From assembly GCA_913058335.1 (NCBI GenBank), contig CAJXPX010000008.1:62001-126000 (forward strand): a DNA stretch of 64,000 nucleotides, given 5' to 3'. Below, one piece after another: positions 25,206-26,344 of this stretch. Each line of letters starts with the position of its first letter. Position 1 is the first letter of the stretch. The stretch comes from an uncultured Hyphomonadaceae bacterium (lineage in GTDB: Bacteria > Pseudomonadota > Alphaproteobacteria > Caulobacterales > Maricaulaceae). A model generated the notes under the pieces. The model ran no database searches. It saw only the letters and a list, made by a program, of their open reading frames with translations, and had not been told where the DNA came from. A program made the translations under genes and the position numbers.

Positions 25206-25235
25206 AAAAAGCCCGGCCAATTGGTCGGGCTTTTT
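25206..25235 (+). terminator. Rho-independent terminator after pnp
   Basis: AAAAAGCCCGGCCAATTGGTCGGGCTTTTT. Confidence 0.8.
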
Positions 25236-25252: not shown

Positions 25253-25300
25253 CCCCTCTCCCAGAGGGAGAGGGTGCCCGAAGGGCGGGTGAGGGGTTGC
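25253..25300 (+). repeat. GAGGGG-type palindromic repeat, left copy
   Basis: CCCCTCTCCCAGAGGGAGAGGGTGCCCGAAGGGCGGGTGAGGGGTTGC. Contains a perfect CCCTCTCCC/GGGAGAGGG inverted repeat, a GCCC-GAA-GGGC hairpin, and outer CCCCTC...GAGGGG. Confidence 0.85.
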
Positions 25301-25323
25301 TATATTTCTGGAAATAGACAGGC

Positions 25324-25674
25324 TTAAGGCTTAGCATTTTCCAGGGTCTGCCAAATATGGTCGACAGTCGAATTTAGGTCATCATAGCAATCTTCATTCC
25401 CGACACGCAAAACTTGGTAGCCCATTTGATTGAGCATTGCCGTTCGTTCCGCGTCATAATCCTCTCGACTCTCATGGGTTGGCCCGTCTAATTCCACTAT
25501 TAATTTCTGCCTTTCGCAAAGAAAGTCGACGACGAATTTGTCTTTAGGAACTTGTCTGCGGAATTTATAACCTCCGCATCTACGACCTCTTAGCTCTTGC
25601 CATAATAGCTCTTCCGCCGAAGTTTGATTTCGGCGAAGCTGTCTCGCGAAGTTTGTTTTCTTTAGCTTTCGCAT
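25324..25674 (-). CDS. DUF559 domain protein (Vsr/REase-fold endonuclease-like)
   Basis: NFARQLRRNQTSAEELLWQELRGRRCGGYKFRRQVPKDKFVVDFLCERQKLIVELDGPTHESREDYDAERTAMLNQMGYQVLRVGNEDCYDD matches the DUF559 pattern. Confidence 0.9.
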   Translation of the reverse strand: MRKLKKTNFARQLRRNQTSAEELLWQELRGRRCGGYKFRRQVPKDKFVVDFLCERQKLIVELDGPTHESREDYDAERTAMLNQMGYQVLRVGNEDCYDDLNSTVDHIWQTLENAKP

Positions 25675-25706
25675 GAGGGCAGATTAGGGGCACACTGAGA
25701 GGTTTG

Positions 25707-25791
25707 GAACCCCTCATCCGACCTTCGGCCACCCTTTCACGTCGAATGATTATCAATCCTTCTTTGGTTCAAATCCCCTTGGGAGAAGGAA
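25707..25791 (-). repeat. GAGGGG-type palindromic repeat, right copy, inverted and interrupted
   Basis: Reverse complement reads CCTTCTCCCAAGGGGA...AGGGTGGCCGAAGGTCGGATGAGGGGTTCC. The AGGGTG...GGTTnC part matches the left copy with a few mismatches; about 35-45 nt intervene before the TCTCCC part. Confidence 0.65.
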
Positions 25792-25889: not shown

Positions 25890-26170
25890 TGTTTAGGATG
25901 TTCTTTTGTTCATGGACAGGTAGACGTCACCTACCGGAGTAAGAGACAGCGGGATTGAGCAGCTTGTGTGACAGCAAGCCTGTGCCGGGTCACCGAAAGT
26001 GGGTTAGCCTGCCTACCGCGCCCAGAAGCTGCAAACGGCTTCGTACCGGCGTGACTGTGGGAGACGTGTAAGAGGCCGCTTCGGTTCCAACCGCTGCCGC
26101 AGAGCTTTGGCTTTTGCGAAACACATATTTTATTCGGTCTCCGGCAGAGGCCGAAGCTCTGCGGGCTGTC
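25890..26170 (+). ncRNA. Candidate structured non-coding RNA (family not recognised)
   Basis: No convincing ORF. Several potential helices: GGTAG/CTACC, GCTTG/CAAGC, GAAGC/GCTTC, CACcgaaaGTG. A 15-bp stem CCGCAGAGCTTTGGC (26097-26111)/GCCGAAGCTCTGCGG (26150-26164) pairs with one U-G on the + strand. Confidence 0.35.
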
Positions 26171-26344
26171 CACCTTCATTTGGAAGCCGTAAGACGCTCC
26201 GCACTGGATTGCGAGCAGGAGGAAAAGCGTGGCCAATGCACATTTCCGAAAATATAGCCACATCCTCACAAACGCCTGCATTGCAGAGCCCGCCTTCGGA
26301 TGTTTGCCCTTGCCTTTCGCCCGCCAACGCTTAAGTCGCGCCCC

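Follow-up and report, generated by a model that had tools for sequence, protein, structure and literature searches.

A DUF559 nuclease gene between inverted triplex-motif repeats: a candidate minimal mobile element

Introduction

Beyond the pnp terminator of an uncultured Hyphomonadaceae bacterium, a solitary DUF559 gene lies between two palindromic repeats in inverted orientation, with non-conserved intergenic DNA on its other side. The question raised by this locus is whether gene and repeats form a single mobile unit and, if so, what moves it. The locus is part of the window, the whole 64,000-nucleotide stretch of contig CAJXPX010000008.1 (assembly GCA_913058335.1) that was analysed. According to the original prediction, the arrangement might be a minimal nuclease-plus-repeat element comparable to REP repeats and their RAYT transposases. 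The present analysis identifies the repeat as a triplex motif (TM) already described in the literature, and adds that the unit is also inserted in frame within genes and that YcjD of E. coli is an instance of the pairing.

An early description of such repeats, known as TM_ECO or PIT, reportedly dates from Hoyne in about 2000. They have been reported from over 260 genomes, among them that of E. coli, with no means of spread given; the TM_ECO triplex was demonstrated in vitro, and footprinting in vivo gave no stable triplex (PMC4666352).

Results

Structure of the unit

The bracketing of the DUF559 gene by inverted repeats, as initially proposed, was borne out. The open reading frame is intact, the inverted arms at 25268-25298 and 25708-25738 are 87% complementary over 31 nt, and the GAGGGG ends of both repeats point toward the gene (Table 1). 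The downstream repeat lies 27 bp beyond the DUF559 stop and has a predicted DNA fold of -13.8 kcal/mol (z -2.8). The upstream repeat is diverged: its A' arm is disrupted, and an insertion of about 40 bp interrupts the outer hairpin and separates CCTTCTCCC from the remainder. The TCTCCC that had been noticed further out corresponds to this split hairpin. All nine triplets fit the triplex rule (see below) in each window repeat, the upstream comparison being of arm A with the third strand. The window holds no further copy of the repeat, as had also been noted, since one-mismatch matches elsewhere are at chance level.

Table 1. Coordinates of the unit, its parts and in-frame units at other loci. 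Positions refer to the window unless a locus is named.
Feature	Position	Strand	Remarks
Whole unit, repeat - DUF559 gene - inverted repeat	25253..25789	.	537 bp
DUF559 (PF04480) nuclease gene	25324..25674	-	116 aa, intact ORF
Complete triplex-motif repeat, G-type, 3' side of DUF559 gene	25253..25296	+	44 nt
Downstream repeat, arm A	25254-25262		CCCTCTCCC
Downstream repeat, arm A'	25266-25274		GGGAGAGGG
Downstream repeat, second hairpin	25276-25286		GCCCGAAGGGC
Downstream repeat, third strand	25287-25296		GGGTGAGGGG, gene-facing
Inverted, diverged A-type repeat, 5' side of DUF559 gene	25710..25789	-	Split outer hairpin
Upstream repeat, third strand	25710-25719		+ strand letters CCCCTCATCC
Upstream repeat, second hairpin	25720-25731
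Upstream repeat, arm A	25781-25789		+ strand letters GGGAGAAGG
pnp intrinsic terminator	25206..25235	.	Inverted repeat, outside unit
In-frame DUF559 unit, locus L025	3975-7337
In-frame DUF559 unit, locus L117	331-1719	-
In-frame DUF559 units, loci L128, L129, L205, L219, L222 and L024

The repeat is a triplex motif

Copies of the repeat consist of an arm A (e.g. CCYTCTCCC), a loop, an arm A' (GGGAGARGG), often a second hairpin, and a tail (GGRTGAGGG). The tail runs parallel to arm A, C being paired with G and T with A or T, a pattern that is the rule of the purine-motif intrastrand triplex. At the variable triplet, 48 of 90 copies have C,G,G, 38 have T,A,A and 4 are mixed, giving three-strand covariation (C.G*G or T.A*A) in 86 of the 90. 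Comparison of the parallel and antiparallel rules favoured the former in 76 cases and the latter in 11, with 71 ties. The repeats are predicted to fold into stable DNA hairpins.

Judged by these sequence features, the repeat belongs to the TM/PIT family of Holder 2015 (PMC4666352). Both TM_ECO and the repeat described here have a pyrimidine arm, a complementary purine arm and a parallel third strand (GGGTGAGGG), and in both, close inverted pairs join two subtypes: this combination is invariable in E. coli (5/5; PMC4666352), and the 11 tight inverted pairs in our material, chosen by eye among the matches listed, all unite an A-type with a G-type copy. The two differ in their neighbours. No mobility gene was reported near the published TMs, close to which Holder et al. 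never found transposases or integrases (PMC4666352), whereas here DUF559 lies between inverted TMs at most loci.

These 11 pairs lie away from DUF559, in genomes G006, G028, G041, G071, G080 and G087. The combination of A-type and G-type ends suggested that a Vsr-like enzyme might act on a T:G mismatch. Triplet pairing gives a better account of the A/G covariation within repeats, and the mismatch idea remains speculation.

The DUF559 protein

The window protein matches profile PF04480 over the full domain (E=5.7e-39; 132.8 bits against a cut-off of 20.6) and has every residue that is invariant in the 21-member family alignment (R14, E21, W25, R40, Q41, D50, F51, E61, D63, G64, H67, D74 and R77). 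PADLOC and PHROGs searches yielded no function for it. The nearest solved structures by profile are 3hrl, named endonuclease-like, and 3r3p, a mobile-intron protein, the similarity to the latter (E=8.1e-5) covering the C-terminal half. We take 3r3p to be a homing endonuclease of the I-Bth0305I type. The DUF559 protein of the window is predicted to be a homing-like nuclease of the Vsr/EDxHD type.

Its likeness to the EDxHD homing endonucleases (I-Bth0305I, PDB 3r3p) lies in this profile similarity and in the colonisation of genes by both. The window unit differs in having neither intron nor intein, in being bounded by TMs and in occurring at unrelated sites. DUF559 has been placed within the EDxHD homing family (PMC9403480). 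The Vsr endonucleases offer a further comparison, as Caulobacter VsrA carries a DUF559 domain and is tied to the methyltransferase ScmA, to methylation and to the SOS response (PMC12907096). The window, however, has no methyltransferase gene adjacent to DUF559, and flanking palindromes are not reported in the text of the VsrA paper.

DUF559 genes are accompanied by repeats in many genomes

Eight of the 18 genomes in the genus, and 61 of 99 in the bacterial family, carry DUF559; 125 distinct DUF559 genes were read from them. Inverted pairs, defined as joining the two 300-bp flanks with an alignment score of at least 35, were found at 78 of 124 DUF559 genes, the remaining 46 lacking a strong pair, and at 0 of 174 shifted intervals (Fisher p about 2e-39), these latter controls being unmatched for intergenic content, for which the GIY-YIG set below makes up in part. 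A TM, strictly defined, lies no more than 300 bp away from 94 of the 125 DUF559 genes. The corresponding counts are 5 for 87 stretches located 650 bp or more away, and none for 30 GIY-YIG genes from the same family. The original prediction had proposed comparing DUF559 with other genes for flanking inverted copies, and on both measures DUF559 genes were accompanied by such repeats far more often than controls. The same loci served for many tests, thresholds were set while viewing the data and the shifted controls are imperfect; the case rests on the effect sizes and on the GIY-YIG comparison.

Phylum-wide, DUF559 was found in 162 of 397 genomes, and a strong pair accompanied 13 of the best-scoring 30 loci compared to 2 of 120 controls. 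The pairing also occurs in one Leptospiraceae and one Bacteroidetes genome. By these sequence comparisons the DUF559-TM pairing is general, extending through the proteobacteria and beyond at differing sites. Four genomes have TM cores and no DUF559. A search of the open-access literature, to which our claim of novelty is limited, gave no match for DUF559 together with repeats.

As a separate observation, stand-alone GIY-YIG genes of the same bacterial family (loci L223-L252) also have strong inverted pairs, at 12 of 30 genes and 0 of 60 controls. Several of these pairs are CGTC-like (CGTC/TGTC-type REPs), and 12 of the 30 GIY-YIG genes have a CGTC-type repeat nearby, compared to 7 of the 125 DUF559 genes.

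Repeat copies in the host genome

A scan of the host genome (3.06 Mb in 24 contigs) with the window protein located two DUF559 loci. The second gene, on contig C22, is broken by stops and likewise sits between inverted repeat copies. When the genome was searched with the inner half of the repeat, allowing up to three mismatches, three of the four copies flanking DUF559 ranked top (0, 0 and 1 mismatch). The fourth, with two mismatches, tied with four matches elsewhere in the genome, in none of which was an outer hairpin seen on inspection. A loop-free pattern matched one perfect core in the whole genome, that of the window. The four copies beside the two DUF559 genes are the sole convincing repeats in this genome, which is the outcome of the genome-wide search that had been suggested.

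Similarity between copies at different sites stops at the repeats

Locus alignments show that the similarity of related copies at different sites is confined between the repeats and is lost at the repeat edges, the limits of the unit coinciding with the repeats. Two sites in genome G041 share 672 bp at 98.8%, and in the sets from G040, G034/G082 and G025 the likeness similarly ends at the repeats. No target duplication was seen in the few junctions read.

A series of alleles comes from the era-recO interval in the genus to which G041 belongs. There, era and recO are 9-40 bp apart in six relatives, a gene-less repeat dimer occupies the interval in G087 and G115, and G041 itself has the DUF559 gene between two direct copies of the repeat dimer. 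The expectation of empty sites in relatives therefore held at era-recO, in a genus other than that of the window, and was not cleanly borne out at the window's own site: DUF559 is absent 3' of pnp in the readable relatives of the same genus, where the region is non-syntenic and no exact empty junction was found.

Inside single genomes, repeat similarity tracks nuclease similarity (Spearman 0.55 over 47 pairs, with 0 of 2000 permutations as high), which fits movement of gene and repeats as one unit and argues against a random association of the gene with whatever repeats a genome holds; linkage by itself would likewise make repeat and gene types co-vary. Such comparisons give good support for reading the unit as a mobile one whose limits are the TM repeats.

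In-frame insertions within host genes

In several genomes DUF559 and its repeats are found within an uninterrupted reading frame of another gene, the genes so occupied encoding LeuRS, RsmE, an AsnB-like protein, HsdM and other methyltransferases (Table 1). The insert in LeuRS lies between the positions of E. coli LeuS residues 175 and 182, and the RsmE insert, found in three genomes, falls between residues about 160 and 191 of the E. coli protein. Here the repeats are translated, as PSPLGEGRGGG, HPTPTLPSRGG and PHPQPLSQGERG, into proline/glycine-rich linkers. Fusions of DUF559 domains to RNA methyltransferases were noted earlier without explanation (PMC1829167), and in-frame insertion of the unit would account for them. 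The palindromic elements of Rickettsia (RPEs) are similarly found in frame within protein genes (PMC2229807), but these have no nuclease gene and a different repeat sequence.

The E. coli gene ycjD

NCBIfam links the window protein to PRK09767, and ycjD (1351407-1351760 in the annotated record) is the DUF559 gene of E. coli K-12. Published TM number 9 of Holder (1351239-1351204) sits between fabI and ycjD, and a degenerate TM copy overlaps the ycjD end; with 18 TM sites, the probability of one abutting a given gene is about 0.008. YcjD of E. coli exemplifies the DUF559-TM pairing. Of 5426 E. coli genomes, 3338 match the fabI-ycjD-sapF stretch in one place over at least 80% of its length. Three of the genomes lacking it were opened; in all of them a TetR gene and efflux genes adjoin fabI, and in NZ_CP082775.1, the sole one read through to sapF, the fabI-sapF interval holds an efflux operon and no annotated ycjD. 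Presence and absence were thus seen, and no exact empty allele, among the E. coli genomes opened.

Discussion

A possible mechanism and its relation to REP repeats

We consider it likely that the unit is a minimal mobile element with TM ends and a nuclease of the Vsr/homing type that acts on these ends and spreads them. That the nuclease drives the spread of the repeats is the simplest reading of the loci, and makes it a strong candidate for this role. The two inverted TM copies would be the element's ends and the gene between them would encode the putative Vsr/EDxHD-type, homing-like nuclease. This enzyme may recognise the TM as a hairpin or triplex in transiently single-stranded DNA, or alternatively as duplex, and would make a nick or break there, from which host repair could copy the unit, or a gene-less TM dimer, into a new site. 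The dispersed TM dimers would then be non-autonomous derivatives of the unit, as REPINs are of RAYT transposases.

The analogy with REP/REPIN-RAYT systems extends to a palindromic intergenic repeat, to a partner enzyme of one domain with inverted copies on either side and to dispersed gene-less dimers, these last being seen in the genomes of relatives and not in that of the window. The two differ in enzyme and in repeat. RAYT (TnpA-REP) is a Y1 HUH transposase, whereas the protein enclosed here is DUF559, a predicted nuclease of the PD-(D/E)XK (Vsr/EDxHD-like) kind; and the REPs of RAYT are GTAG-tagged (PMC3733652), while the window repeat has no GTAG tag and possesses a triplex third strand.

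The TM/PIT repeats, described since about 2000 without a known means of spread, would in this way gain a candidate mover, and the proposal is tractable in laboratory E. coli, where it involves just ycjD, a small gene, and a motif of 36 nt. CGTC REPs, too, have been reported without a dedicated transposase (PMC3733652). We lean, with less assurance than for the unit itself, towards a wider proposal in which homing-type nucleases of the DUF559/EDxHD and GIY-YIG kinds would be dedicated movers of triplex motifs and CGTC-type REPs, respectively, recognising their ends once folded as triplex or hairpin. On this proposal, the repeats scattered through E. coli and numerous other bacteria would be gene-less derivatives.

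Alternative explanations

The TMs might instead be mere favoured landing or break-prone spots alongside which DUF559, like other cargo, became inserted without any part in their spread. The TM loci of E. coli are indeed prone to rearrangement (PMC4666352), genes other than ycjD lie between fabI and sapF in the three ycjD-less strains examined (with the full interval read in one), and a few genomes have TMs without DUF559. However, landing spots of this sort sit poorly with the lack of a TM near any of the 30 GIY-YIG genes of the same genomes, with the tracking of nuclease lineage by repeat type, with a host genome that has no convincing TM away from DUF559 and with copies whose limits coincide with the repeats, and we regard the explanation as improbable. 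Somewhat less probable again is that DUF559 is a host repair enzyme of the Vsr type, working with a cytosine methyltransferase, and that the repeats are its terminators or regulatory sites. The stable hairpins predicted for the repeats would suit such sites, and the connection of Caulobacter VsrA with ScmA and SOS places it in a host DNA-repair context (PMC12907096). Against this, the inverted repeats stand on both sides of the gene and occur elsewhere as gene-less dimers, they serve as translated linkers within other genes, and the gene is patchy, both in the genus of the host and in E. coli, where ycjD and its neighbours are found in one place in the 3338 genomes mentioned above.

Movement of the unit in trans by another enzyme, either an IS transposase or homologous recombination between repeats, with the nuclease as a passenger or domesticated, seems to us very improbable and the least credible of these alternatives. 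We know of no transposase chemistry for DUF559, and the G041 gene between two direct repeat-dimer copies is an arrangement that recombination could also yield. The nuclease, though, is the one gene constantly enclosed across the loci read, and no transposase or integrase was found near TMs by Holder et al. (PMC4666352). Spread of the TM ends by the nuclease that they enclose is, as stated, the reading that we prefer.

Other features near the unit

About 440 bp of intergenic DNA (25890-26330) separate the unit from the ABC-F gene and contain a strong stem-loop, GCAGAGCTTTGGC / GCCGAAGCTCTGC, at 26097-26164. In scans of the region, this stretch included, no Rfam family reached gathering score and neither a tRNA nor a tmRNA was detected; a sub-threshold microRNA match was taken as chance.
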